Notes under the pieces: model-generated
Databases searched by the model: none
Told to the model about the DNA's origin: nothing
Seen by the model: only the letters and a program-made list of their open reading frames with translations
Position numbers and translations under genes: made by a program
DNA from: Faecalimicrobium dakarense
GTDB taxonomy: Bacteria > Bacillota > Clostridia > Peptostreptococcales > Peptostreptococcaceae
Assembly: GCF_000499525.1 (NCBI RefSeq)
Contig: NZ_HG529407.1
Location: 1 to 64,000, forward strand
Direction of reading: 5' to 3'
DNA: 64,000 nucleotides
Part shown: one piece after another, positions 6,044 to 20,810 of the stretch
How positions within the stretch are numbered: position 1 is the stretch's first letter
How the letters are laid out: each line of letters opens with the position of its first letter

Positions 6044-6337
6044 TTACATATGTTTTTTTGCTTCTATTAACATCTCATTAGCTTTTTGCATATATTCTAT
6101 AGCTTTTTCTATATGGCTAGCTGTTTCTTCTTTGCCTATTTCTCTAGCCTTTTCCACCCATTCTCTAAATCCTTCTTCATGAGTTTCATTATGGTTTACC
6201 CAGTGAAGTAATAGTATTTTTAAAGTTTTCTCATCTTTATTTTCAACCTCAGCTCCACGAGTATGAGTATGTTCATGGCAATGATCGTGATCATGGTCAT
6301 GACCGTGGTGATATCTTACAACATCTTTACTAAACAT
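6044..6337 (-). CDS. Histidine-rich small protein, probable metal (nickel) binder
   Basis: A 97-residue soluble protein. Residues about 9-26 are a His/Asp cluster (HHGHDHDHDHCHEHTHTR) of the kind used for Ni or Zn storage. The rest is a helical domain with HWVNHNETHEEGFREW, which I associate with small DUF8180-type proteins. It is the last gene of a group with a DUF3842 protein (15 bases upstream) and CooT, near a nickel-dependent CODH/ACS cluster. A role as nickel reservoir or chaperone for CooS or AcsB is therefore inferred, not shown. The ribosome site is TGGGGGA. No homologue with known function is recalled. Confidence 0.75.
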   Translation of the reverse strand: MFSKDVVRYHHGHDHDHDHCHEHTHTRGAEVENKDEKTLKILLLHWVNHNETHEEGFREWVEKAREIGKEETASHIEKAIEYMQKANEMLIEAKKHM

Positions 6338-6352
6338 TATTTTAATCCCCCA

Positions 6353-6769
6353 TTATTTTATATTAAATTCCTTTTTTATAACCTTAACTGCATCTTTTAT
6401 AAGTAAGGCTAATGGCTTATTTTCTAATCCTACTAATTCAATATTTTCAGGCATTATTGGAAGTAATATTTTTAAAGCTTCACTATCAACTATAGCTTCA
6501 CTTATTTTACAAGTTACTTCTCCCATCATAGAATTTGGCATAGCCATAGATATTGGCGATACTACTATATTTGCCTTTTTTACAGATGTCACAATTGCAT
6601 TTTCACCTGTTGCCCCTTTATTGGCATGAGCCTTCATCATTGCACTAGTTGCAATAGAATTTGTACCTAGTGCATATATATCTATATATGTAGGTAGTTC
6701 GTCTCTAAGATTGGATACTATCTGAGACCCTATTCCTCCACCCATTCCATCTATAACTGCTATTATCAT
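6353..6769 (-). CDS. DUF3842 family protein
   Basis: A 138-residue protein of the DUF3842 family, recognised by its opening IAVIDGMGGGIGSQIV and the central ALGTNSIATSAMMKA and GATGENAIV blocks. The glycine-rich start after a beta strand looks like a nucleotide-binding loop of a Rossmann-like fold. Its function is not known to me. It lies between cooT (23 bases upstream) and the His-rich gene (15 bases downstream), so all three are very probably cotranscribed. Linkage to CODH/ACS suggests a part in nickel handling or CODH maturation; this is inference from context only. Confidence 0.8.
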   Translation of the reverse strand: MIIAVIDGMGGGIGSQIVSNLRDELPTYIDIYALGTNSIATSAMMKAHANKGATGENAIVTSVKKANIVVSPISMAMPNSMMGEVTCKISEAIVDSEALKILLPIMPENIELVGLENKPLALLIKDAVKVIKKEFNIK

Positions 6770-6792: not shown

Positions 6793-6984
6793 TTAGTTAT
6801 TTTCTTTTATTATTATTTTATGGTCCATTAATCTTATTTCTTTTATTTCACCATCTATTATCTTTTGTTCCCCTAATAAATCTGTTAAATAAACTTTACC
6901 TTCATATGGATCTACACTTACTACATTATCCATTACTCTTTCTAACTTTTCATTTTTTAAAACATAAGCTGCTGATTCACACAT
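6793..6984 (-). CDS. cooT: CooT-family nickel-binding protein
   Basis: A 63-residue protein that starts MCESAAYVL and follows the CooT pattern: Cys at position 2, a VxxVDPYEGKVYLTDLLGE core and a C-terminal beta strand (IRLMDHKIII). In Rhodospirillum rubrum CooT is a small dimer that binds nickel through that cysteine and helps mature CO dehydrogenase. The gene has a strong GGGGAGGG ribosome site. It begins only about 36 bases after the terminator of the upstream lipM-like gene, so it probably lacks a full promoter of its own. It is followed by the DUF3842 and His-rich genes. Confidence 0.85.
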   Translation of the reverse strand: MCESAAYVLKNEKLERVMDNVVSVDPYEGKVYLTDLLGEQKIIDGEIKEIRLMDHKIIIKENN

Positions 6985-7020
6985 ATAAATCCCTCCCCAA
7001 AATGATTTCTTATTTAAACC

Positions 7021-7063
7021 AAAAAAGGTCTCTTCAGGTATTTCAATACACCGAAGAAACCTT
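7021..7063 (-). terminator. Terminator after the acsV/lip operon, before cooT
   Basis: A 13-bp stem with two wobble pairs (arms about 7025-7037 and 7051-7063) followed on the minus strand by six T. It lies between the lipM-like gene and cooT. Given the lack of space for a cooT promoter it may act as a partial terminator. Confidence 0.7.
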
Positions 7064-7148
7064 CATGATTTCAAAATTTATATTATATTTTACTATATTT
7101 TACTATATTTTGAGTATAGCACTTTATTTTATATAAAGTCAATTAATT

Positions 7149-7964
7149 TTATCTCTTTTTATTGTGTTCATCTGATCTGTATTTTTCATACAACTTATCT
7201 GTTAAGCTGATTTCATATTCACTTAATTCTTCTTCTAAAAATTCTACATTTAAGTGAGTTCCCATAGCCTTTATTAAATTTTCTTCTAATTCGTTTATAT
7301 CTACTTTTAATTTAGATTCATTTTCTATTCCACTAGCTTTTCTAGATGTAAATCTAATTAATCTCTCTTTTTTATCCTGATTTTCCATTTTTATTAATTC
7401 AAATAATTTATCTACATCAAAATCTAACACTATAGATCCATGTTGAAGTATTACACCATGTTTTCTACTTTGTGCACTTCCTACTACCTTTTTCTTATTC
7501 ATTGTTATTTCGTAAGAAGCATGAGCATTAAAACATGCTGCTGATAAATTATCTCTTCCTATTCTTTCTCCCGTACTTAAATTATCAGTATGTATATTAC
7601 ATAGATTTAGACCTTTTACTAACCCTTCACTTATAAATTTATAAGATAAGTTTATACTTTTATCCATTAATGGATTGTCTTCACCCACAATAACACTATA
7701 AGTTAGTTCATCTTCATGAAGAACTGCTCTTCCACCAGTAATCCTTCTAACACAGTCTACATTTAATTTTTTACAAGCTTCTAAGTCTATTTCATCTTCA
7801 AGCTTTTGGAAATACCCTATAGTTAAACATGCTGGTTCCCAAGTATAAAATCTTAATGTAGGTTTTACTTTTCCCTCTTTATAAGCAATTGTAATAGCCT
7901 CATCAATTGCCATATTCATAGCACCATTATATGTTTTATTTCTTATTACTCTCCACTGATTCAT
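7149..7964 (-). CDS. LipM-like octanoyltransferase / lipoate-protein ligase
   Basis: A 271-residue member of the biotin/lipoate protein ligase fold (BPL_LPL). Visible motifs are RRITGGRAVLH (73-83) and KKVVGSAQSR (158-167). A cysteine in SAACF (C144) stands where LipM-type octanoyltransferases carry their catalytic Cys. This favours transfer of octanoyl from carrier protein to the lipoyl domain of GcvH, though a lipoate ligase role cannot be excluded. It follows the two radical SAM genes by 11 bases, in an operon that would thus hold both the acyl-transfer and the sulphur-insertion steps. The start has a GGGGAGA ribosome site, and the gene ends at a terminator. Confidence 0.85.
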   Translation of the reverse strand: MNQWRVIRNKTYNGAMNMAIDEAITIAYKEGKVKPTLRFYTWEPACLTIGYFQKLEDEIDLEACKKLNVDCVRRITGGRAVLHEDELTYSVIVGEDNPLMDKSINLSYKFISEGLVKGLNLCNIHTDNLSTGERIGRDNLSAACFNAHASYEITMNKKKVVGSAQSRKHGVILQHGSIVLDFDVDKLFELIKMENQDKKERLIRFTSRKASGIENESKLKVDINELEENLIKAMGTHLNVEFLEEELSEYEISLTDKLYEKYRSDEHNKKR

Positions 7965-7975
7965 AAAATTCTCCC

Positions 7976-8917
7976 CTAAGCTAAATTTAGTTCTTTTACA
8001 GCCAATTTTATCTCCTCTTCATTTAAACTTCTTGAGTAATTATAAATAGTACTTCCTGGTCTTTCATTATAATAAGGTCTATTGCAATTTTTACAACCTC
8101 TTATTTCAAAAGGATAGCCTTCGTTTATATCATCTTTTATAGCCTCATCTAATTCAATATGAGTTAAATATCCATTTTCAAACTTAAAACACTCATTACT
8201 ATATCCTCTATCTATCATATAAGTCATAAGTTGAACCCTTCTGTAACTTTCAATATTTGGTTGGCTTATGCTTTCCATTTTAGTCCCTTTTACAGGTGTA
8301 AATGCAAATAAACTTACAGTTACTTTATTATCTCTTAAATATGTATATAGATCATGTATATCTTTATGAGTTTCACCTAATCCAACTATAATATGAGTGC
8401 TTATTTTGCCCTCATATTTTCTAGACATATTAGTTATCAATTCTAACTTTTCTTTATAGTTATTTCCTTTAATATTTTCATAAAGCTCTTTGTTACAAGC
8501 ATCTATTGCTATTCCTATTTTATCTACTCCACATTTGAAGAACTTTTCTATATCTTTATCAGATTCAAGTTTTGCAGATAATGAGATTGGGAAGTTAATT
8601 TCATCTTTTATGAAAGATATAAATTCTTCAACTTCCATATGAGCTTCATCACTATACATTGACTGAATACATATCCTCTTTATATATTTTCCTTTATATG
8701 ACTTTAAAGCACTTAGTATTTCTTCTTTTGAATACTCTGGCCAAATAACTCTTGATAATTTATCTTTTCTTGTACTACTTTCTGCCGATTGAGAACAAAA
8801 TGCGCATTTATTACTGCACTTATCTCCAATCATTATATAAGCCGTTGTAGGAGGTATTAAACTAGCTTTATTCAATAATCCAAGCTCTATAGCACTACCT
8901 AAAGATAATCTAATCAT
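7976..8917 (-). CDS. BioB-like radical SAM protein, candidate LipS-type lipoyl synthase subunit
   Basis: A 313-residue radical SAM enzyme with the 4Fe-4S motif CSNKCAFC (C34, C38, C41), a BioB/LipA-like barrel and a second Cys cluster near the C-terminus (GCKNCNRPYYNERPG). I chose the ATG at 8917 because it forms an ATGA overlap with the upstream stop; a TTG at 8929 is possible. Two different radical SAM proteins next to a BPL_LPL gene is the pattern of the two-component lipoyl synthase LipS1/LipS2 described in Thermococcus and since found in bacteria. In that system both proteins together insert two sulphurs into octanoyl-GcvH. The assignment rests on context and family resemblance; which subunit this is was not decided. 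Confidence 0.75.
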   Translation of the reverse strand: MIRLSLGSAIELGLLNKASLIPPTTAYIMIGDKCSNKCAFCSQSAESSTRKDKLSRVIWPEYSKEEILSALKSYKGKYIKRICIQSMYSDEAHMEVEEFISFIKDEINFPISLSAKLESDKDIEKFFKCGVDKIGIAIDACNKELYENIKGNNYKEKLELITNMSRKYEGKISTHIIVGLGETHKDIHDLYTYLRDNKVTVSLFAFTPVKGTKMESISQPNIESYRRVQLMTYMIDRGYSNECFKFENGYLTHIELDEAIKDDINEGYPFEIRGCKNCNRPYYNERPGSTIYNYSRSLNEEEIKLAVKELNLA

Positions 8918-9780
8918 AATACACAACACTCCTTACCCTCTAATATAGTCATATTAAGTTTAATTGCTTTATTTTTAGCCTCTCTTGATGGAAGAACTAT
9001 TTTATTGACTCCACACATTAAGGCTAAGCTATCTAATTCTTTTCTATATATTCCTCTAGGTCTCATGCAACCTAAGTTTATCTGTGTATTTGGCATTTGA
9101 ATTCTTGCCTCGCAAAGTACATCACAAACTTTATCTAAATTAGGAGGACTTACATTTTCATACTCTGTATTTTTTGTTGGTATTAAAACTATGAATGTTA
9201 ATTTCTTTGGAGGGTTTTTAGCTAGATAATTTATGATTTCATATTCTCCTTTTACTATACCACCTTTTAATCCTATACATATATGTGGTGATACTTCAGC
9301 ATTTTCTTTTATTATTTCATATGCATTTATATAATCTTTTTTATCTTTATCTATTTTATATACTTCTCTTATTGTATCTTTATCAAATACTAAGTCAAAA
9401 GAAACTACATCTAAGTATTTACATACATTTTCTATGCTTTCTTTGTCCATAAGGCCTAAATGGGCATTTAGTTTGTATCCTTCTTCTTTTAGCTTCTTTA
9501 ATGTTTCTATATGATTATTTATAGGCACATCTCCTTCAAAGCTACATCCACCGCTTAATAAAAAGCTACTTACATTTTTACCTTTTAATTTAGTTTTATA
9601 TTCATCTATAGGTGTCATATTCTTTAGATAATAACCATTGCAATGAGCACAACTTAGTTTACAGCTGTCATTAGTTGTACTAATAGCTAATGTTTCATTT
9701 GGATATGCAAATTCTATTTTATCTCCAAAGTTTTCTTTTTTTATATTAAATGCCTTATTCATTTTATCTGCTAAGTTCAT
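8914..9780 (-). CDS. Radical SAM protein, candidate second LipS-type lipoyl synthase subunit
   Basis: A 288-residue radical SAM protein with motif CKLSCAHC (C40, C44, C47). Further cysteines lie near the C-terminus (NLGCMRPRG, LMCGVNK and the extreme tail KECCVL) that could bind an auxiliary cluster. It overlaps the downstream radical SAM gene by 4 bases (ATGA), implying translational coupling and probably a complex. It starts 3 bases after the acsV stop, with its GGAGG site inside the end of acsV. Together with the neighbour it fits the LipS1/LipS2 pair; alone it would only be annotated as radical SAM. No lipA gene of the classical type is in this window. Confidence 0.75.
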   Translation of the reverse strand: MNLADKMNKAFNIKKENFGDKIEFAYPNETLAISTTNDSCKLSCAHCNGYYLKNMTPIDEYKTKLKGKNVSSFLLSGGCSFEGDVPINNHIETLKKLKEEGYKLNAHLGLMDKESIENVCKYLDVVSFDLVFDKDTIREVYKIDKDKKDYINAYEIIKENAEVSPHICIGLKGGIVKGEYEIINYLAKNPPKKLTFIVLIPTKNTEYENVSPPNLDKVCDVLCEARIQMPNTQINLGCMRPRGIYRKELDSLALMCGVNKIVLPSREAKNKAIKLNMTILEGKECCVL

Positions 9781-9783
9781 AGT

Positions 9784-11712
9784 CTAATCCTCCAGTAATT
9801 TTTTAACTGTTGGGAATTGTTCTATATTCGTATGTGGTAAAAAACATGCTGAAATAAATTCATCCATGTATGTTGGATAAACACTTAATTCAACATAAGT
9901 CATTTCATCTCCTATATCACTTAGCTTTTTCTTTGCGTCTTTACTTATGAGTGCTAAATATGAACCTACTAAAGAACTATTTCCTATATATTCAAACTTC
10001 TCCCTTTCTATATCTGGAAGTAATCCTATAAGAATTGAATTTTCTATGTTTAAATTATTTCCTATTCCACCAGCTATATAGACTTTGTCTATTATACTAA
10101 AGTCCATGCCTAAACTTTCTATAAGAGTGGCTGCACCTGAATATATTGCACCTTTAGCTCTAACAAAGTTATCTATATCAACTTCAGTTACTGTTATATC
10201 ATTTTCTAAATTGTATTCTCCTTTAAATGCTAATACATATTCTCCTATTTCGTGTTCATTAAATCTAATTCTATCATTATTTATATCTCTATGTATTTTA
10301 CCTCTTCTATCAATAACACCTTTAAGTAGCATCTGGCAAATTAAATCTATTATGCCTGAACCACATATCCCGAAAGGCTCACATTCACCTATTATTGATA
10401 ATGTTGGTTTTAACGTATTTTTATCTATACTAACTTTATCTATGGCACCATTTGATGCTCTCATTCCACAACTTATACCTCCACCTTCAAATGCAGGTCC
10501 AGCAGAACAAGCACAGCTCATCATATAATCTTTATTTCCAAATACTATTTCTCCATTAGTTCCTAAATCTATAAATAGTACATTTTCTTCACTTGACCAT
10601 ATCCCTGCTGATAATACACCCGCTGTAATATCTCCTCCAACATAACTAGCTACAGATGGAGCAAGATAAACATAAGCACTATGGTTTATGTTTAGACGTA
10701 CATCTTCTCCCATAAGCCTTGGTGATTTTAAAAATGGTGGAATATATGGTTCTTGTCTTAAATAGTCTGTATATACCCCTAAGAACAAGCTAGACATAGT
10801 TGTATTTCCTGCTACTACAAGAGAAACTACATTATCCTTACTTATATTATTTTTTATGTATATAGATTCTAATAATGGATTTATAGTTTCATCTATTATA
10901 GCTTTATTTAATTCTTCTAATCCATTTTTCTTCGTTGAATATATTATTCTATTTATAACATCTGCTCCATATTTTATCTGAGCATTACCTGATGATGCTT
11001 TATCTACTACTTCCTTAGTATATAAATCAACTAAACAAACTACTACAGATGTTGTTCCTATATCAATTGCTACCCCATATAGTTGGTTTTGAGTATTGCC
11101 TTTTTCTATATTTATTACTGTTATTTTATTTTTCTTTTTAATGTAACTTATTGTTACCTTAAAATCACTTTCTCTAAATACTATCGGCATTTTTCTAAGT
11201 AAGTCTAACTTAAAATCTATTTCATTAAATCCTAAATGATTTCTAACATGTCTTTCTAATCTATCTACATCACTTATATTATCATCTAGATTTGGCTCTT
11301 CCATCTCTATATATGTTTTTTCTATATTAGTTTTAAAATCTAAATTATGAGTCTCTATTATATTCTTAGCTCTATCAAATATTTCTTTATCTTTCTTTTT
11401 ATCACTACCTTCTATTTTCATACCATGCATAGATGATGATAATTTAGAAGGGACTTCTATTTCTATATCATCAATTACTTTAGTATTGCAAGCTAATATG
11501 TATCCTTGTTCCCATTCCTCATCTTTTATGTGTATTGTCTTTTCGCTATCAACATTCCCTTTTAATAACTTTACTTTACACTTTCCACAAGACACATTTC
11601 CCCCACATGGAGCATCTATAAATATATCAGCATTCCTTGCAACCTCTAATAAATTATCACCTTTATTACAATAAACTTCTTTATTATGTGATTTAAAAAT
11701 TACTTTTATCAT
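9784..11712 (-). CDS. acsV: Corrinoid/iron-sulfur protein reductive activator (RACo/AcsV-like)
   Basis: ATP-dependent reductive activator that returns the oxidised corrinoid protein AcsCD to the Co(I) state. The 642-residue protein has an N-terminal plant-type 2Fe-2S ferredoxin domain (C36, C42, C45, C75), a linker, and a large ASKHA-type ATPase domain with IDIGTTSVVVCLVDL, FIDLGTNGEIVFG and VYIAGGIGNNL phosphate-binding blocks. It is the first gene of the acsV-radical SAM-radical SAM-lipM-like operon. The spacer before it (11713-11786) lies just after the thiT terminator and must hold its promoter; only a weak TTCATA-17-TTATAT match is seen. The ribosome site is GGGGGGAGAG. It is separated from the main acs genes by thiT. 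Confidence 0.88.
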   Translation of the reverse strand: MIKVIFKSHNKEVYCNKGDNLLEVARNADIFIDAPCGGNVSCGKCKVKLLKGNVDSEKTIHIKDEEWEQGYILACNTKVIDDIEIEVPSKLSSSMHGMKIEGSDKKKDKEIFDRAKNIIETHNLDFKTNIEKTYIEMEEPNLDDNISDVDRLERHVRNHLGFNEIDFKLDLLRKMPIVFRESDFKVTISYIKKKNKITVINIEKGNTQNQLYGVAIDIGTTSVVVCLVDLYTKEVVDKASSGNAQIKYGADVINRIIYSTKKNGLEELNKAIIDETINPLLESIYIKNNISKDNVVSLVVAGNTTMSSLFLGVYTDYLRQEPYIPPFLKSPRLMGEDVRLNINHSAYVYLAPSVASYVGGDITAGVLSAGIWSSEENVLFIDLGTNGEIVFGNKDYMMSCACSAGPAFEGGGISCGMRASNGAIDKVSIDKNTLKPTLSIIGECEPFGICGSGIIDLICQMLLKGVIDRRGKIHRDINNDRIRFNEHEIGEYVLAFKGEYNLENDITVTEVDIDNFVRAKGAIYSGAATLIESLGMDFSIIDKVYIAGGIGNNLNIENSILIGLLPDIEREKFEYIGNSSLVGSYLALISKDAKKKLSDIGDEMTYVELSVYPTYMDEFISACFLPHTNIEQFPTVKKLLED

Positions 11713-11786
11713 AACTCTCCCCCCAATGTGCTTATCTAATATAAGTTTAGCACACTTTAAGTATGAATATTGTATTCTAACTAGGT

Positions 11787-11838
11787 AAAAAATTAAGAAT
11801 GCCGTTTTAATAAAATTTAATTAAAATGGCATTCTTAA
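11787..11838 (-). terminator. Terminator of thiT
   Basis: A long stem (11793-11810 with 11821-11838, one mismatch) is followed on the minus strand by six T (11787-11792). It separates thiT from acsV. Confidence 0.75.
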
Positions 11839-11855
11839 TCTTGAATCTATATTTT

Positions 11856-12458
11856 TTAGTTGTTAAAAATTTTCAACTCTTTAGCAAATCTTTTTAGTGG
11901 TAATATTGCTATTACTATGGTACTTAATAACCCTTCTATCCCTAAACTTGAAAAGTTATATACTAGAGAGTAAACAAATACATTCATACCTTCTGGCGCA
12001 TATTCTGGAAAATATATACACCCAGAAAGTACACTTATAAATGTACTTAAAAATACTGCTAACAAACATCCCATTATTATTTTATATTTCTTATCACGTC
12101 CAAATATCCCTGCCGTACCTAATAGCATAGATGCTATCATGTAATCAAGTATAAATTGAGCTGGATGTATAACGTACGCTCCCTCTAATAATCTAAGTAG
12201 ACCAAATATTAACCCTCCTGTAAGACCTATGGTTTTTCCATATAAAATTGAAAGTAACATAGTTGGTAACATTGAAAGTAAATTTATTCCTCCACCTTGA
12301 GGATATTTTATTAATTGTATCATACTAAGAATTAATGAAATCCCACTAAACAAGGCTATTGTAACTATCATTTTAGTAGTTAACTTTTCTTTTCTTAAAT
12401 CGTTTATATACAGTGCAAAAAACACTATACTAGCTAATATTATTATTAAATGTATCAT
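11856..12458 (-). CDS. thiT: Thiamine ECF transporter S component ThiT
   Basis: A 200-residue membrane protein with about six hydrophobic segments, the substrate-binding subunit of an energy-coupling-factor vitamin transporter. The family is recognised from the IKYPQGGGINLLSMLP loop and the AYVIHPAQFILDY block characteristic of ThiT. Control by a TPP riboswitch directly upstream supports thiamine as the substrate. The energising EcfA/EcfT subunits are not in this window, as is normal for group II ECF systems. The gene has an AAAAAGGAGA ribosome site and its own promoter and terminator, so it is a separate unit set between gcvH and acsV. Confidence 0.88.
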   Translation of the reverse strand: MIHLIIILASIVFFALYINDLRKEKLTTKMIVTIALFSGISLILSMIQLIKYPQGGGINLLSMLPTMLLSILYGKTIGLTGGLIFGLLRLLEGAYVIHPAQFILDYMIASMLLGTAGIFGRDKKYKIIMGCLLAVFLSTFISVLSGCIYFPEYAPEGMNVFVYSLVYNFSSLGIEGLLSTIVIAILPLKRFAKELKIFNN

Positions 12459-12545: not shown

Positions 12546-12610
12546 CTTATAATCTACATATAAAAATACATCTACTTGTACTTTTATAAATATAAACATA
12601 TTTATAAGCT

Positions 12611-12692
12611 TTCCTACGCTGGTATTATCCAGATCAGGTACAAGGGTTAATGAATAAAAATTCATCTCTCAGCCTTTAAGGCACCCCTAGCT
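12611..12692 (-). promoter_or_regulatory. TPP riboswitch (THI box) controlling thiT
   Basis: The minus strand carries the conserved THI-box parts in order: GGGGTGCC, GGCTGAGAG, then ACCTGATCTGGATAATACC and CAGCGTAGG. A terminator hairpin follows at 12511-12545, so the switch works by premature termination, lowering thiT transcription when thiamine pyrophosphate is plentiful. Confidence 0.95.
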
Positions 12693-12701
12693 GATATTCT
12701 A

Positions 12702-12729: not shown

Positions 12730-12762
12730 CCCATTATGGTACAAATTTTTTATTTAATACAT

Positions 12763-12811
12763 AAAAAAAGTATGGTATATTTGCGTGCACTCAAGTATAC
12801 CATACTTTTTT
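12763..12811 (-). terminator. Terminator of the Wood-Ljungdahl operon after gcvH
   Basis: A perfect 16-bp stem (12764-12779 with 12796-12811), 16-base loop containing GTGCAC, and a T run on the minus strand. It ends the cooS-to-gcvH transcription unit. Confidence 0.85.
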
Positions 12812-12814
12812 ATA

Positions 12815-13189
12815 CTATTCTATTTCACTTTCATAACTTTCAGCATCTAATAAACTATTAAGTTCATCAGTATCTGATATTTTTATTTTTACAATCCATG
12901 CATCATATGGATCTTCATTTATATATTCAGGTTCATCTTCTAATTTTTCATTTATCTCAACAACTTCTCCAGATAAAGGAGCTATTAAGTCTGATGCAAC
13001 TTTAGAAGATTCTACTACTCCATAATCTTCAGCTTGAGTTAATTCATCTTCAACTTCTGGCATCTCAACAAATAAAACTTCTCCTAATTGGTCTTGTGCA
13101 AAATCTGTTATTCCTATATAAGCATATTCACCTTCAACTCTTATCCACTGATGCTTACTAGTGTATTTTAAACTTGGTATAACTTTCAT
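12815..13189 (-). CDS. gcvH: Glycine cleavage system H protein
   Basis: Lipoyl carrier protein of the glycine cleavage/synthase system. The 124-residue protein has the lipoyl-lysine motif ESSKVASDL with K63 as the lipoylation site, and the usual C-terminal AWIVKIKI strand. A longer frame runs to 13225, but the ATG at 13189 has a strong TAGGAGG site 7 bases upstream and matches the family start (MKVIPSLKYTSKHQWI). The gene follows acsB closely and is the last gene of the cluster. No gcvT or gcvP is in the window. Its placement with lpdA, MetF and FolD suggests glycine is tied to the methyl branch of the pathway. LipM/LipS-like genes 3-6 kb away could modify it. Confidence 0.95.
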   Translation of the reverse strand: MKVIPSLKYTSKHQWIRVEGEYAYIGITDFAQDQLGEVLFVEMPEVEDELTQAEDYGVVESSKVASDLIAPLSGEVVEINEKLEDEPEYINEDPYDAWIVKIKISDTDELNSLLDAESYESEIE

Positions 13190-13212
13190 ACTATTCCTCC
13201 TAATATGATAAT

Positions 13213-15339
13213 TTACATTACACATTCCATAGATAATGCCGGATGACCTTTTTCTTCTAAGAATGCTAATACACCCTCAGAATCACTAGCTATTGTTTCA
13301 TCACAAATCATATCTGTAAAGTTTTCTATACCTGTCATTTCTTTTACTGTAGCATTTAATCTATCAGCTACATACTCTTTTAACTCTTTTGGCATCCAAA
13401 CTATTCTTTCTGGTCCACCTTCAGCAAAAGCAAACTTTTTAGAAGATATGAAATGTCTTCCGTGCCCCATGAATCCTGGAGTTTGAACCCCTCCACCAGT
13501 CATAGAAGCAAGTTCACCAAATGTCATACCAACTGGAGTTATATCAGAGAATTCTCTGTTTACTATAACAAATCCATTAGCTTCTGGCATTATACCGCAT
13601 ATACACTCGAAACATCCACAAGAAGTCATTGGGTCTTCAAGTATAGAGTATAATGTAACACTTTCAACAGCCCCTTGAGATATCTCTCCTACTGTGTTAT
13701 CTACTGATTGCCATTTACCTAATCTATCATCTAAACATTCACCTTTTACTATTGGTTGACATGGTCCTGTTGGATCTAATTCTTTAGTAGCCTTAGCATC
13801 TAACCAACTAACAGCTCCACAAAGTCCAAGTCTTTCAGGAGTAACAACACAAACATGAGCTGGTGCAAATGATTGACAAAGGTTACAAGAATAGAATTCT
13901 TCAACACTTTCATCAACTAATGAAGCTAATCTCTCATCTCTAGCATTATATCTTGCTTCAGCTTGAGGTTTTAATTCTGAAACCTTGTCAGCATCAGTTA
14001 TTATAGTTATTTCACACTTATCAACAACAGATTCAAATTCATCTAACATCTTAGCATATAAAACTTCTCCAATATGTTCTAATCTAAATCCTTTATCAAA
14101 AGCATCTTTAGATATTCTTATCCAAGACATATCCCTTTGACCAACGTGCATTATACCTTCTATATAGTTTAGGAAGTAATGTAGACGTCTTTCAAGAACT
14201 GGCTCAAAGTCATCTTGCATTGCTTTACCAGCTATATTAACTATAACAGCAAGTGGTAATCTAACAACTCCATCTGTTTCTATTTCATCTATATTAGGAC
14301 CTATAACTTCAATCTTATGGTCTTCAACTTCACTTAATTCTCTTTTTATAACAAGTTCCCAAGCTTCAGTTTTATTTCCACCAAACTCAGCAAACATGTC
14401 ATTCTTTCTTATTCTTTCACCCTCAAATGCTGCTGCAAATGATACAGGTATTGGTATTTCAGTAATTTTTATCTTTATCCCTCTAGCTTCTAATGAAGTA
14501 GCTACTATCTTATCATAATCCTTTTGAGTTAATAGGTTCATTGGAACTTCAAGTACAGTTTGATCTGTTATAACTGGGAACCCTAAAGCTATTGCTCCTG
14601 CTCCAGCAGATACAACTAATTCACTAAGTGGTCCAAATGCATTAACAAATGCTGGAACCCTCTTAGCAGTGTACTCTAATAGACCATTTAAATCTCCTGG
14701 AGTTAAACCTCCAAATATTAATGCTGCTCTTATTGCCACAGAAACTACATGTATAACAGAAGTTACATCATATCCTAAAGGTATAACCCTTAATTCAAGA
14801 CCCATCTTAACTCCAGCTTCTATAGCTTGATCTATAACCTTTCCAACTAAGAAAGTTAATAAACCTTTAGATTGGTAATCTTTTATAACTTTAGCAGCAG
14901 TATCTGCATCTGGGCATTCCCCAAGTACAACTGCAACACCTGGTATATCCCCTGTTACTAGTGGTACTCCAAGGGATCTGATTATTGGGTCAGTTATATG
15001 ACCTGCACATGGCTCACTATATGGTGCATCCATAGTTGAATACTTTATGGCTTCAATTACTTCAGCAGCTAAAGCTGTAGCTAAACCAGAATTTAGCGCA
15101 TGTTCTAGTAAATGAGTTCTATTTATTAAGCTCTCAACTATACCTAATGCTGCTTCTAAGTCAGCTAATGAGTTCATCTTTTGACCTGTTGCTGCATAAA
15201 TACATGGTAGTGAGTATGCAGTATCAGGAAATGCAACTTTATGTTCTCTTCCATTTTTTTCTATAGCTTCTGCTAACATATCTTTAGCAACACTTAAAGC
15301 TTGCTCTGAACCTGTAAAAATTATATTATATAAATTCAC
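13213..15339 (-). CDS. acsB: Acetyl-CoA synthase (CODH/ACS alpha subunit)
   Basis: Assembles acetyl-CoA from CO, CoA and the methyl group of the corrinoid protein at a nickel-iron-sulphur A-cluster. The 708-residue protein keeps every A-cluster ligand: C485, C488, C497 and C507 for the 4Fe-4S part and the C574-G-C576 motif for the distal nickel. All are offset by exactly 21 from the Moorella thermoacetica numbering, matching its 21-residue shorter length. The start is a GTG with a GGGGGAAG ribosome site. It lies between acsE and gcvH in the operon and acts with CooS, encoded at the other end of the cluster. Confidence 0.97.
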   Translation of the reverse strand: MNLYNIIFTGSEQALSVAKDMLAEAIEKNGREHKVAFPDTAYSLPCIYAATGQKMNSLADLEAALGIVESLINRTHLLEHALNSGLATALAAEVIEAIKYSTMDAPYSEPCAGHITDPIIRSLGVPLVTGDIPGVAVVLGECPDADTAAKVIKDYQSKGLLTFLVGKVIDQAIEAGVKMGLELRVIPLGYDVTSVIHVVSVAIRAALIFGGLTPGDLNGLLEYTAKRVPAFVNAFGPLSELVVSAGAGAIALGFPVITDQTVLEVPMNLLTQKDYDKIVATSLEARGIKIKITEIPIPVSFAAAFEGERIRKNDMFAEFGGNKTEAWELVIKRELSEVEDHKIEVIGPNIDEIETDGVVRLPLAVIVNIAGKAMQDDFEPVLERRLHYFLNYIEGIMHVGQRDMSWIRISKDAFDKGFRLEHIGEVLYAKMLDEFESVVDKCEITIITDADKVSELKPQAEARYNARDERLASLVDESVEEFYSCNLCQSFAPAHVCVVTPERLGLCGAVSWLDAKATKELDPTGPCQPIVKGECLDDRLGKWQSVDNTVGEISQGAVESVTLYSILEDPMTSCGCFECICGIMPEANGFVIVNREFSDITPVGMTFGELASMTGGGVQTPGFMGHGRHFISSKKFAFAEGGPERIVWMPKELKEYVADRLNATVKEMTGIENFTDMICDETIASDSEGVLAFLEEKGHPALSMECVM

Positions 15340-15378
15340 TCTACTTCCCCCTTTTTAGCTTCTTATATATATTTTTAT

Positions 15379-16191
15379 TTATCCGTTAAATGCAAATCCA
15401 CCTTCACTTAATTCTAGATAAGAATCTGCATATAAAGAAGCTCCATTTATTATGTCACAAGACTTTATAGTTCTCATTAATTCTTCATCACATGGATTTA
15501 TTATAGCTGAGCTAAATCCATTTGCCATAGCCATAGCTAAGAAGGCACTATCAAGTATTGGTCTTATATGTTTAGGGCATCCATTAGATACATTAGACAG
15601 TCCACCTGTAGTTAATAATCCCATCTCAGTCATCATTCTTATAGCTTCTAATACCTCTACTTGCTTTTCTTGCATCCCTTTTATAACTAAGCATAATGGG
15701 TCAAATAATATATCTGTTGGCTCCATCCCTAACATTAAACCTTTTTCTAATATTTCTTGGCAGTATCCCATACGTTCATCATTATCTCTCGGTATACCTT
15801 CTTTAGCACATAATCCTATAACCTTAGCCTCATATTCAGCTGCTAAATCTATTAATCCTATTCTAGATCCTGCATCTGCAGAATTTATTATTGGCTTTGC
15901 ATGCTCTCTATTGTATACTTTAAGTCCTGCCTCTATAGCTTTTTGGTTAGCAGTATCTAATGCTATTGGAACATTATTAAATTCACTTTGAAGTAATTGA
16001 ACACCCCAAGACATTAATTCTTCTCCATCTCTTTCTGCTGGACCTATGTTAAAATCTATATAATGAGCCCCTGCTTCTAATTGTTCTTTTGCTCTTTTTA
16101 ATATTGGAGCAGGATCTTTTTCCGCTAAAGCTTTTCTTATTACTGGCGATATACAGTGTATTCTTTCACCTATAATCATAAATTTTTCCAT
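15379..16191 (-). CDS. acsE: Methyltetrahydrofolate:corrinoid/iron-sulfur protein methyltransferase
   Basis: Transfers the methyl group from 5-methyl-THF to the Co(I) corrinoid of AcsCD. The 270-residue protein is a pterin-binding TIM barrel: it opens with MIIGERIHCISP, has the DFNIGPAERDG block for folate binding and the LDTANQKAIEAGL strand, and later TTGGLSNVSNGCP, which contributes the conserved Asn near the pterin. The length is that of Moorella AcsE (about 262). It sits between acsC and acsB with short gaps and a GGGGGAT ribosome site. Confidence 0.95.
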   Translation of the reverse strand: MEKFMIIGERIHCISPVIRKALAEKDPAPILKRAKEQLEAGAHYIDFNIGPAERDGEELMSWGVQLLQSEFNNVPIALDTANQKAIEAGLKVYNREHAKPIINSADAGSRIGLIDLAAEYEAKVIGLCAKEGIPRDNDERMGYCQEILEKGLMLGMEPTDILFDPLCLVIKGMQEKQVEVLEAIRMMTEMGLLTTGGLSNVSNGCPKHIRPILDSAFLAMAMANGFSSAIINPCDEELMRTIKSCDIINGASLYADSYLELSEGGFAFNG

Positions 16192-16218
16192 TTAATTTAT
16201 CCCCCTTAGTTTTAACTT

Positions 16219-17595
16219 TTAGGCATTTGCTAAAGTTTGATCATGCTTTTCTTTATATTCTCTTAAGAATTTAGGTAACTCCATAGATTCCTCTGTTCCT
16301 ATAACTACATTCCATCCTGGTAAGCTATCTTCTATATCCCCTTTAAGAACAGCTACTTTACCTGGTATTATTAAATCTCTATTTTTAGTTTTATCAGCTA
16401 CACCGCACTCATTTATAAATTTAGCTATAGAATTTCCTCCAAATTTACCTGCAGCCCATGCTGTAAGAACTGAGTATCCACCAGCATCTGGTATAACTAA
16501 CCAAGTTGGTACTTTAGATCTTTCTATTTCTCCAGCTATTATGAAGTAAGTTAATGCAAAGTCAACAGTAACTAATACTGGTGAATTTTCATCTGGATTA
16601 TTTATTGGATATATCTTAGTTTCAACTCTCATTGGTCTTTGTGGGTCAGTGAATATATTTTGTCTTAGAGCAAATAATGGTAATGCTTTTGAATAATTTA
16701 TATCATCTAATACTATTATTGATCCGTATTTTATAGTAAACATTGATGATAAAGCAACTTCCATATTTGGATTTTTATCTGATAATTTATTTGCAAATAC
16801 TATTGAAGGGTATCCAAATGTTCTATCTTGTTCTTTAAGTGCTATTCTTCTAACTTGAACTGCATTAGTAAATGTATCTTTTATGCTATCTCCAGTTACA
16901 TCTAGTATTAATTCTTTATATCCTGCCTTTTGAACTGATTCAACTGTAGAATATAATTCTTCTAAGCTAGATGCTTTAACTCCTAGAGGTAATTTATCTC
17001 CTTTAACTACTTCTATCATTTCTTTGTAGTTATCTTTATTTGCACCATATAATACTGGCTTTTTATCCTTTAATATTTCAACAGCCTCTTTAGCTACAGC
17101 TGGATCTTCACAATTTATTATGTATGCTAATTCTAATCCACTATCTTTAACTTTGTTTATTAGCTTTAAGAATCCATCTTTATTTTCGAAGTATTCTAAA
17201 AGAGCCATTTCAACTTTCATTTCTTCGCCTATTCTTATATAGTTAACATTTCTTATATTGTTTATTTTTGCATCTATTTCTTCATCAGTCATGCATTCAC
17301 AAAAATCTACTGCGAATCTATTTCTATTTACTAAAGTTTTTTCATGTCTAAATAATACAGTTTCTGCTCCTACTTCGTATTCAGCAGCTCCCGTTCCTAT
17401 TTTTAAACCTTTCATTAAAGGTGCTGTTGCCTCTGATAATTGCGCTATAGCATCATCTGACATATGTGGACACTTGCTAACTTCTATCGCTCCTGAAGCA
17501 ACCTTCATACTGAAGGCCATACAAGTTGGAAATCCACAATCCTTACAGTTTTTCTTTGGTGTTAATTTAAATATATCTAAAGCTTTTAGTGCCAT
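16219..17595 (-). CDS. acsC: Corrinoid/iron-sulfur protein large subunit
   Basis: Large subunit of the methyl carrier between AcsE and acetyl-CoA synthase. The 458-residue protein starts with the 4Fe-4S domain C17-x2-C20-x4-C25-x16-C42, which reduces the corrinoid. A TIM barrel and a C-terminal corrinoid-contacting domain (VIPDAGGYSVLTAWAAGKFGG) follow. It forms a heterodimer with AcsD, encoded immediately upstream (28-base gap). The ribosome site is TAGGGGGAT. Confidence 0.95.
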   Translation of the reverse strand: MALKALDIFKLTPKKNCKDCGFPTCMAFSMKVASGAIEVSKCPHMSDDAIAQLSEATAPLMKGLKIGTGAAEYEVGAETVLFRHEKTLVNRNRFAVDFCECMTDEEIDAKINNIRNVNYIRIGEEMKVEMALLEYFENKDGFLKLINKVKDSGLELAYIINCEDPAVAKEAVEILKDKKPVLYGANKDNYKEMIEVVKGDKLPLGVKASSLEELYSTVESVQKAGYKELILDVTGDSIKDTFTNAVQVRRIALKEQDRTFGYPSIVFANKLSDKNPNMEVALSSMFTIKYGSIIVLDDINYSKALPLFALRQNIFTDPQRPMRVETKIYPINNPDENSPVLVTVDFALTYFIIAGEIERSKVPTWLVIPDAGGYSVLTAWAAGKFGGNSIAKFINECGVADKTKNRDLIIPGKVAVLKGDIEDSLPGWNVVIGTEESMELPKFLREYKEKHDQTLANA

Positions 17596-17623
17596 TATTT
17601 TATCCCCCTAACCCTACAATTTA

Positions 17624-18568
17624 TTAAGCTAACGCATTAACTAATTCTTTTACAGTTTCTATTGATTTTGGATGACGAAGTATAACCGCATTTGCTCCTC
17701 CAACTAGTGAACTTACAGCAGTTGAAATTTCCATATTTATACCTCTTTCTTCTACGCATCCCCAAGCTGGTTCATCTTCCTCGCTTGCTATAGACTCTTT
17801 AACATGCCATACTTCAGATGACACTGGAGTTATTATTGGCATTTGTAATGTTTTATCATTTTGACCAAATGCAGCAAGTCTAATTCTATCCATAGTAGAT
17901 GCAACATATTCATACCCATAACCAACAGCAGAACATCCAACGTTCATAACTATACTTTCAGACTTAACGCCTAATTGAGTTAATAATACGTTTAATTGTT
18001 TAGCTAGGTTTATATCAACAGAAGATTCAGCTGAAACTTTATGGCTGTATGCCATAGCTGCTGCTGCACCTACTGCTTTATAGTTTTCTTCAGTAGCTGA
18101 TAAGAACAGACAGTTATGTCCGTCTACTGCTTGAGCTACTTTTTCAAATAATTTTCCATCTTTATCGTGGTTTCCGCATCCTGATATAACTACAGGGATA
18201 CTAACTGCTTCAACTACTTTTTTAGCATTTTCAGCACATTCTTCTACAGATTTATCTAATCCATTTGGATCTGCACTTTCTAATTTTAAACATATGAAGT
18301 CTGCCTCTGTATTTTCTTCTACATACTTAGCCCACTTAACAGGACAATCACAAACATCTTTATATATATCTTTAATTGAAGATATCCATGATTCTGGATA
18401 AGTATCAGATATTTCAATTCCTACTTTTTGAATATTTCCAGTATCTCCATCAAAACTATAAAATGGAAGAGTACTTTCTCCACCTATTTTTATTGCTTTT
18501 TCTCCTGTTCCTATTTCTACTTCTGATATCTTACCAGAATACTTTTGAACAGACATCTTGAATGCCAT
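17624..18568 (-). CDS. acsD: Corrinoid/iron-sulfur protein small subunit
   Basis: Small subunit of the corrinoid/iron-sulphur protein, a 314-residue TIM-barrel partner of AcsC that helps hold the corrinoid at the subunit interface. It is recognised from SGKISEVEIGTGEKAIKIGG at the start, the VVISGCGNHDKDGKLFE strand and the ending EERGINMEISTAVSSLVGGA. Adjacent to acsC in the usual acsD-acsC-acsE-acsB order. The ribosome site is AAGGGGGAAA. Confidence 0.95.
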   Translation of the reverse strand: MAFKMSVQKYSGKISEVEIGTGEKAIKIGGESTLPFYSFDGDTGNIQKVGIEISDTYPESWISSIKDIYKDVCDCPVKWAKYVEENTEADFICLKLESADPNGLDKSVEECAENAKKVVEAVSIPVVISGCGNHDKDGKLFEKVAQAVDGHNCLFLSATEENYKAVGAAAAMAYSHKVSAESSVDINLAKQLNVLLTQLGVKSESIVMNVGCSAVGYGYEYVASTMDRIRLAAFGQNDKTLQMPIITPVSSEVWHVKESIASEEDEPAWGCVEERGINMEISTAVSSLVGGANAVILRHPKSIETVKELVNALA

Positions 18569-19418: not shown

Positions 19419-20810
19419 CTATGCTTTTGCTAATTTAGGAGCTGCATGAACACATTCCCCATGAACATCATGAAGAGCTTCCATTATGCCCTCAGATAAT
19501 GTTGGGTGTGCATGTATTACATCTCCTACTTGTTCTACTGTTAATCCTAAGTGAACAGCAAGTGATAATTCTGTTAATAAATCTGTCGCATGAGGTCCAA
19601 CTATTGAAGCCCCTATTATTTTGTCATTTTTGTCTGCTAATATTTTGATAAATCCTTGGAAATGTCCTATGGCTTGAGCCTTACCTAGTGCTCTAAAATC
19701 GAATTGTCCTACATGATACTCTTGTGCTTGAGCTTGAAGTTCTTTTTCTGTTTTACCTACTGCCGCCACTTCTGGTTCAGTATATACACATCTTGGTATA
19801 GCAGTATAGTTAACTGTTTTAGATTTACCTAAAGCATTTTCTACTGCCACTATCCCTTCTTTTGAAGCAACATGTGCTAAGAATGGAGTATTTATTAAAT
19901 CTCCAATTGCATATATTCCTTCTATATTCGTTTCAAGATTTTCATTAACTATTATTTTGCCTCTTTCCATTTCTATTCCTAGTTCTTCTACCCCAGAATT
20001 TGAAAGGTTTGGTTTTCTACCAACAGCAACTAACCCATATTGAGCTTTAACTTGTTTTCCATTTGAAAGTGTTGCAACCACTGCATTGCCAACAACTTCA
20101 CAAGCCTGAACACCAATACCTGTTAATACTTTAATTTTATCCTTTTTAAACTGTCTCTGCAACTGTTTTGCTACATCTTTATCTTCAAAAGGTAATAATT
20201 GTTCATTCATTTCAACTATTGTTACTTCAGTTCCTAGACTTCTTAAGAATTGGCCTATTTCACAGCCTATAACTCCTCCACCAACTATTAAAACTGACTC
20301 AGGAAGTTCTTTTAATCCTAGAACCTCATCACTAGTGATTACAACTTCGCCATCATATGGAAACATTGGTGGTACTATTGGAACTGAACCATTAGCTAAA
20401 ATTATTTTATCAGCATTTATTATCTCTTTAGTTCCATCTTCTTTAGTAACTTCTATATTATTTTTATCTAATAATTTTCCAAATCCATTAACTAAGTTTA
20501 TCCCTCTTTTTTCAAATAAGAATTCTATTCCAGTTATTAGTTGGTTAACTATCTTATCTTTTCTATTCATTATGGCTGAAAAATCAGCTTTAACTTCTCC
20601 ATCTATATTTATTCCAAAATCTTTTGCTTCTTTTATATTCATTAACATTGAAGAAGATGCAAGTAGTGCTTTAGTTGGAATACATCCTACATTTAAGCAA
20701 GTACCTCCTACCCTTCTTTTTTCTATAACTGTTACATCAGCTCCAAGCATTGCTGCTTTTAAAGCTGCAACATATCCTCCTGGACCTCCACCAATAACTG
20801 CTATCTTCAT
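19419..20810 (-). CDS. lpdA: Dihydrolipoyl dehydrogenase
   Basis: FAD- and NAD-dependent reoxidation of dihydrolipoyl groups, the L protein of the glycine cleavage system. The 463-residue protein begins with the GGGPGG FAD fold (7-12) and has the redox disulphide GGTCLNVGCIPTK (C38, C43), an NAD fold (IVGGGVIGCEIG) and the C-terminal HAHPTLSEG catalytic histidine. It has no attached lipoyl domain. It is placed between metF and the acs genes, consistent with GcvH as its partner. The ribosome site is GGGGGAAAA. Confidence 0.93.
   Translation of the reverse strand: MKIAVIGGGPGGYVAALKAAMLGADVTVIEKRRVGGTCLNVGCIPTKALLASSSMLMNIKEAKDFGINIDGEVKADFSAIMNRKDKIVNQLITGIEFLFEKRGINLVNGFGKLLDKNNIEVTKEDGTKEIINADKIILANGSVPIVPPMFPYDGEVVITSDEVLGLKELPESVLIVGGGVIGCEIGQFLRSLGTEVTIVEMNEQLLPFEDKDVAKQLQRQFKKDKIKVLTGIGVQACEVVGNAVVATLSNGKQVKAQYGLVAVGRKPNLSNSGVEELGIEMERGKIIVNENLETNIEGIYAIGDLINTPFLAHVASKEGIVAVENALGKSKTVNYTAIPRCVYTEPEVAAVGKTEKELQAQAQEYHVGQFDFRALGKAQAIGHFQGFIKILADKNDKIIGASIVGPHATDLLTELSLAVHLGLTVEQVGDVIHAHPTLSEGIMEALHDVHGECVHAAPKLAKA

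Follow-up and report, generated by a model that had tools for sequence, protein, structure and literature searches.

What are two radical S-adenosylmethionine (SAM) genes and a lipoate ligase-fold gene doing immediately behind the gene for a corrinoid activator? The question arises in Faecalimicrobium dakarense (GCF_000499525.1, contig NZ_HG529407.1, positions 1-64,000; this whole stretch of 64,000 nucleotides is referred to here as the window), where a carbon monoxide dehydrogenase/acetyl-CoA synthase (CODH/ACS) cluster is encoded on the minus strand, as are all features with coordinates below. Its order is metV, metF, lpdA, cooC, acsD, acsC, acsE, acsB, gcvH, thiT, acsV, lipS1, lipS2, lipM, cooT, a DUF3842 gene, and a gene for a small His-rich protein. 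We consider it highly probable that acsV-lipS1-lipS2-lipM unites the cluster's corrinoid activator gene with a cassette for lipoyl assembly, which would lipoylate GcvH for a function in the Wood-Ljungdahl pathway.

On profile evidence, the two radical SAM genes are members of the LipS1 (8914..9780) and LipS2 (7976..8917) families. Both products pass their curated NCBIfam equivalog models by more than 100 bits (NF053742, 340.3 bits against a cut-off of 230; NF053743, 395.5 bits against 270), while BioB and LipA score far below cut-off; the LipS1/LipS2 assignment of a first-pass annotation, made from the sequence alone, thus stands. The CxxxCxxC motifs that it had listed are present as well, at C40/C44/C47 in LipS1 and C34/C38/C41 in LipS2, and these cysteines are invariant in 30/30 relatives together with C238, C285, C286, and H166 of LipS1 and C83, C275, C278, and H175 of LipS2. 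In Thermococcus kodakarensis, the auxiliary-cluster ligands are C230, C276, C277, and possibly H159 for LipS1, and C85, C276, C279, and probably H178 for LipS2 (PMC9585515). Counterparts to all of them occur in the window proteins, matched by spacing and motif context rather than by sequence alignment.

The fourth gene (7149..7964; PF21948, 131 bits against a cut-off of 27) encodes a single LplA/LipB catalytic domain with no match to a C-terminal ligase domain in Pfam, and the structural model (predicted local distance difference test score of 91) spans one domain. It carries the TGGRAVLH motif, as previously read from the translation, and C144 and K159 are invariant in 27/27 relatives. C144 may be the counterpart of the acyl-accepting cysteine of Bacillus subtilis LipM. 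Since a serine replaces C144 in the large subunit of the Thermoplasma ligase, a LipM-type transferase is favoured over a ligase, as the likely if unproven identity of this enzyme.

These genes are packed as the first-pass annotation described, with 3 nt between acsV and lipS1, a 4-nt ATGA overlap between lipS1 and lipS2, and 11 nt between lipS2 and lipM; the start of lipS2 is revised from an upstream GTG to the ATG at 8917. AcsV itself (9784..11712; NF040756, 1064 bits against 800; PF14574, PF17651, PF17650, PF00111) combines an N-terminal 2Fe-2S domain with RACo domains and matches the ATP-dependent reductive activators of the corrinoid iron-sulfur protein. AcsV has a separate task, maintenance of the corrinoid protein in its active state, and is a neighbour of the lipoyl enzymes rather than one of them. 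A part for AcsV as electron donor to LipS was also considered, and nothing was found in its support.

Is the arrangement more than a coincidence of one draft genome? We surveyed 291 evenly sampled Clostridia genomes and all 71 genomes of the Peptostreptococcaceae family set. Across the class sample, LipS2 occurs in 1/291 genomes, that of the window alone, and AcsV exceeds its cut-off in 11/291; within the family, LipS2 is present in 30/71 genomes (11 genera) and AcsV in 43/71. All 27 family genomes with both acsV and lipS2, from 9 genera, link gcvH-acsV-lipS1-lipS2. The acsV-lipS1-lipS2 spacing is 894-966 nt, and gcvH lies 67-579 nt upstream except in the window, where thiT intervenes. Because such near-identical spacing recurs in 27 genomes of 9 genera, the cassette arrangement is not due to chance, and the pairing that had struck the first-pass annotation as unusual proves both real and rare. 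LipS1 and LipS2 distances follow AcsV distances (r of 0.97 and 0.96), which fits long joint inheritance.

Relatives lacking LipS, where examined, proceed from gcvH-acsV to cooT-DUF3842 with the cassette cleanly absent. One genus holds both states (G346-G348 with the cassette, G349 without), so losses of the cassette probably occur. In LipS-lacking relatives, the interval from acsV to DUF3842 yielded no credible lip remnant, the one match (E 0.03) falling in a stretch with what appears to be an iron-transporter operon. Two genera lack lipM and have LplA-type genes located elsewhere. Three genomes that have glycine decarboxylase but lack acsV carry divergent lipS1-lipS2-lipM sets (41-46% identity; L144, L145, L146) away from any acs cluster, with a large Fe-S protein resembling an iron-only hydrogenase subunit encoded nearby. 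No LipS1 relatives were found on plasmids. A single-sequence LipS1 search of genome contigs returned the sister species only, and an alignment query would reach further.

The window's own genome is a draft of 256 contigs (3.73 Mb, 99.96% complete) in which no lipoyl synthase and no attachment enzyme was recognised besides those of the cassette. A classical lipA/lipB pair, which the earlier annotation had named as evidence that would count against it, was searched for genome-wide: nothing exceeds the LipA cut-off (TIGR00510), for which LipS2 itself gives the top score, 30 bits where 310 are required, and there is no LipB. The other weak LipA matches include BioB-like and methylthiotransferase-like proteins. 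Since the cassette's own protein is the only PF21948 match, the genome encodes no separate LplA, LipB, or LipM-type protein. There is likewise one true GCV_H match, two weak ones being biotin carriers with AMK motifs. The genome yielded no E2 subunit of a 2-oxoacid dehydrogenase and, at an E-value of 1e-30, no glycine decarboxylase P-protein (GDC-P).

The single GcvH (12815..13225; TIGR00527, 145 bits against 116) carries the lipoyl site ESSKVASDL, with the conserved ESSK lysine at Lys75 of the reading frame, and is probably the lipoyl acceptor. Across the family, the PF21948 enzyme is present in 51/51 genomes with GcvH and absent from 19/20 genomes without it, and GcvH is present in 43/43 genomes with AcsV. 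Fifteen genomes, several of them closed, retain GcvH with neither a strong GDC-P match nor E2 (G319 is counted here as lacking a strong match, though it has a distant one); all fifteen encode AcsV, and their lipoyl route is LipS1/LipS2 in 7 and LipA or an LplA-type ligase in the others. The eight genomes with GcvH and no AcsV all have GDC-P.

One relative has GcvH in two contexts. The genome G346 encodes a glycine-cleavage set at 1.24 Mb (gcvT-gcvH-gcvPA-gcvPB, followed by a formyl-tetrahydrofolate ligase-like gene, lipB, and lipA) and a CODH/ACS set at 0.69 Mb (gcvH-acsV-lipS1-lipS2-lipM); its loci L152 and L161 thus comprise two complete lipoyl systems in one genome. In G347 and G348, too, each of the two contexts has its own GcvH copy. 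The lipoyl-lysine motif is ESSK in 19/19 acs-linked GcvH proteins examined, one of them from another family of the class, versus ESVK in the four glycine-cleavage-linked copies, which form one clade (support 0.999) and differ from the acs-linked proteins at five more positions.

Three competing readings were weighed. Were the radical SAM proteins instead BioB-, HydE-, or MqnE-like, they might act on the corrinoid or the A-cluster. The closest solved structures to the LipS1 model are indeed MqnE, BioB, and HydE (Z of about 20, root-mean-square deviation (rmsd) 3.5-3.9 over about 260 residues), but such fold matches are to be expected, as sequence searches of the PDB turned up no LipS structure; given the conserved auxiliary ligands, the wide margins over the LipS1 and LipS2 cut-offs, and scores that do not reach the BioB cut-off, we regard this alternative as extremely improbable. 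The attachment enzyme invites a more serious challenge. It could be an ATP-dependent lipoate/octanoate ligase of the sLpl type that scavenges free acid, rather than an octanoyltransferase dependent on acyl carrier protein: its top fold match is the Thermoplasma LplA large subunit (Z 30, rmsd 1.9 over 244 residues), the characterised bacterial sLpl-LipS1/S2 clusters contain true ligases (PMC10332631), and a single-domain LplA-like ligase is already known (PMC6067878). Yet the protein falls far below the curated ligase models (LplA_large NF053750, 150.7 against 480 bits; LplAB NF053751, 103.9 against 550), its invariant C144 aligns with the Thermoplasma serine, no accessory domain is fused to it, and the combination of LipM with LipS1/S2 has precedent (PMC10332631). 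No separate LplB subunit gene was recognised beside the cassette, LplB not having been sought genome-wide. A ligase is therefore an unlikely identity, with perhaps one chance in a few, and a LipM-type transferase remains preferred.

The same doubtful standing, neither negligible nor probable, applies to the proposal that the cassette exists for glycine cleavage and lies beside acsV by an accident of cluster order, GcvH happening to be encoded there. Several observations weigh on its side and against a dedicated Wood-Ljungdahl role. A strong GDC-P match is present in 28/43 genomes with acsV, and many of these relatives pair glycine decarboxylase with an acs-linked GcvH only, including the sister species G302, which has GcvP and encodes gcvT-gcvPA-gcvPB; being the sole GcvH despite the presence of glycine decarboxylase, the acs-linked protein presumably serves glycine cleavage there too. 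Cassettes without acsV occur in three genomes (G324-G326) with glycine decarboxylase genes, arranged in G324 as gcvT-gcvH-gcvPA-gcvPB, and the cassette is therefore not bound to the Wood-Ljungdahl pathway. In 16 acsV-bearing genomes, LipA or an LplA-type ligase stands in place of LipS. The contrast between genomes with and without acsV in the retention of GcvH without GDC-P or E2 is weak (Fisher p 0.09, for genomes that are not independent), as few acsV-lacking genomes carry GcvH, and the gene absences in the window's genome are read from a draft of many contigs. Against this proposal stand the window's genome and the 14 others that keep GcvH in the absence of strong GDC-P or E2, 7 of the 15 with LipS1/S2, as well as the glycine-cleavage locus of G346, which has a GcvH, LipB, and LipA of its own. 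Gene content and the ESSK/ESVK paralogue split of GcvH thus support service to the Wood-Ljungdahl pathway, and lipoylation of a GcvH with at least a partial role in that pathway is the most likely task of the cassette.

If lipoyl assembly for GcvH is indeed the role of the cassette, it may proceed as follows. The LipM-like enzyme would octanoylate the ESSK lysine of GcvH, the acceptor, with acyl carrier protein as the probable octanoyl donor. LipS2 would then add sulfur at C8 and LipS1 at C6 to yield lipoyl-GcvH; the families and ligands are those seen here, and the chemistry is that of Thermococcus. LpdA, the cluster's own dihydrolipoyl dehydrogenase (E3; 19419..20810; TIGR01350, 540 bits against 409), probably reduces or oxidises the lipoyl group, and lipoyl-GcvH cycled in this manner would serve the Wood-Ljungdahl pathway and, in relatives having that system, glycine cleavage as well. 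As to the recipient, we offer tentatively, and at somewhat short of even chances, that the acs-linked ESSK GcvH and LpdA carry electrons or thiols to a Wood-Ljungdahl enzyme, for which the AcsV 2Fe-2S domain, MetVF, and the metal centres of ACS/CODH are candidates. A direct feed from LpdA to methylenetetrahydrofolate reductase was set aside; a passage of PMC8515935 reports that free lipoamide failed in Clostridium ljungdahlii, lipoyl-GcvH not being the carrier tested.

The remainder of the locus bears on how these genes are expressed. Upstream lie the genes for acetyl-CoA synthase, methyltransferase, and corrinoid iron-sulfur protein (acsB, acsE, acsC, acsD; 13213..18568), recognised by PF03598/PF19436 for acsB, PF00809 for acsE, and conserved synteny. 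Between gcvH and acsV sits thiT (11856..12458; TIGR02357, 157 bits against 108), a thiamine transporter component with its thiamine pyrophosphate riboswitch at 12594-12698, flanked by terminator-like hairpins after gcvH (12760..12820; -19.4 kcal/mol, z -5.2) and after thiT (11785..11850; -22.6 kcal/mol, z -10). Because both hairpins are strong, acsV-lipS1-lipS2-lipM probably forms a transcription unit separate from gcvH in the window. A hairpin comparable to the one after gcvH, and identical to it in the loop, occurs in the sister genome. No ThiT match was found in the 21 relatives' loci searched, the sister species included, and in the relatives' loci examined gcvH lies directly upstream of acsV with no thiT between.

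A further hairpin (7005..7085; -26.1 kcal/mol, z -6.0) separates lipM from cooT, the gene for a nickel-binding CODH accessory protein (6793..6984; PF10133, 85.5 bits against 27), and could either terminate the lip unit or serve as a leader for the cooT unit or for nickel genes. Two other genera have its ATCATGAAGGTTTC...AAACCTTTTTT pattern ahead of cooT as well. The hairpin is preceded by a promoter-like site at 7142-7113; the promoter scan as a whole returned no more sites than shuffled sequence. After cooT, in every acs locus examined, comes the DUF3842 gene (6353-6769 in the window), which is about 80-99% identical among relatives and lies near the cluster ends. Beside these two genes, most acs clusters of the family end with a conserved gene for a His-rich protein of 97 amino acids (6044-6337 in the window), which has no Pfam match and is a candidate nickel or metal chaperone. 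The window also contains a match to Rfam RF03531 (1355-1443), a small RNA of Clostridioides difficile reported to lie within a helicase gene.

What GcvH and LpdA do in Wood-Ljungdahl clusters has been called unclear (PMC5039349, PMC9040625), and an acetogen makes both proteins at very high levels with no function known there (PMC9040625). A passage of PMC8760232 proposes a GcvH/LpdA bifurcation model that its own authors judge unlikely. Clostridium autoethanogenum deletion strains exist for lpdA and for gcvH-acsV (PMC12723745), and these genes are therefore non-essential in that species under the conditions used. The presence of a lipoyl cassette in the locus, together with the retention of attachment enzymes where GDC-P and E2 are missing, argues for a lipoylated GcvH that takes part in carbon fixation, and suggests a role for lipoic acid in carbon fixation itself, beyond glycine breakdown. 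If true, this would extend the use of lipoate beyond 2-oxoacid dehydrogenases, glycine cleavage, and sHdr sulfur oxidation. The survey also indicates a lipoate-making route for a large part of a bacterial family, and it provides material for tests: GcvP-free strains, ESSK and ESVK variants of GcvH, and the two-set genome G346.

Finally, the system is best understood beside those already described. Like LipS1/LipS2 of T. kodakarensis (PMC9585515), it comprises two radical SAM proteins with the same radical-SAM and auxiliary ligands, LipS2 acting before LipS1; unlike it, the window system is bacterial and its genes are adjacent, overlapping, and placed next to acsV and gcvH within a CODH/ACS cluster. 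The sLpl(AB)-LipS1/S2 clusters of sulfur oxidisers (PMC10332631, PMC6067878) similarly group LipS1, LipS2, and an LplA-fold gene with a GcvH-like acceptor outside glycine cleavage. There the acceptor is LbpA, whereas here it is probably the GcvH of a Wood-Ljungdahl cluster, the attachment enzyme resembles LipM, and the cluster has no recognisable lipT. The LipM and LipS1/S2 combinations of Thermotogota, Synergistota, and some archaea share an octanoyltransferase-type enzyme and the lack of a ligase and differ in having been reported from gene content; the text that describes them makes no mention of acetogens or of corrinoid, CODH, acs, or Wood-Ljungdahl genes (PMC10332631). The Wood-Ljungdahl clusters of acetogens (PMC5039349, PMC9040625, PMC8760232) place gcvH and lpdA alike, but the window locus also holds the genes for lipoyl synthesis, and its GcvH is compared here with a separate glycine-cleavage GcvH. 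LipS1/S2 was already known with a ligase or with LipM (PMC10332631); the main addition to the first-pass annotation is the paralogue split of GcvH and the two lipoyl sets of G346.

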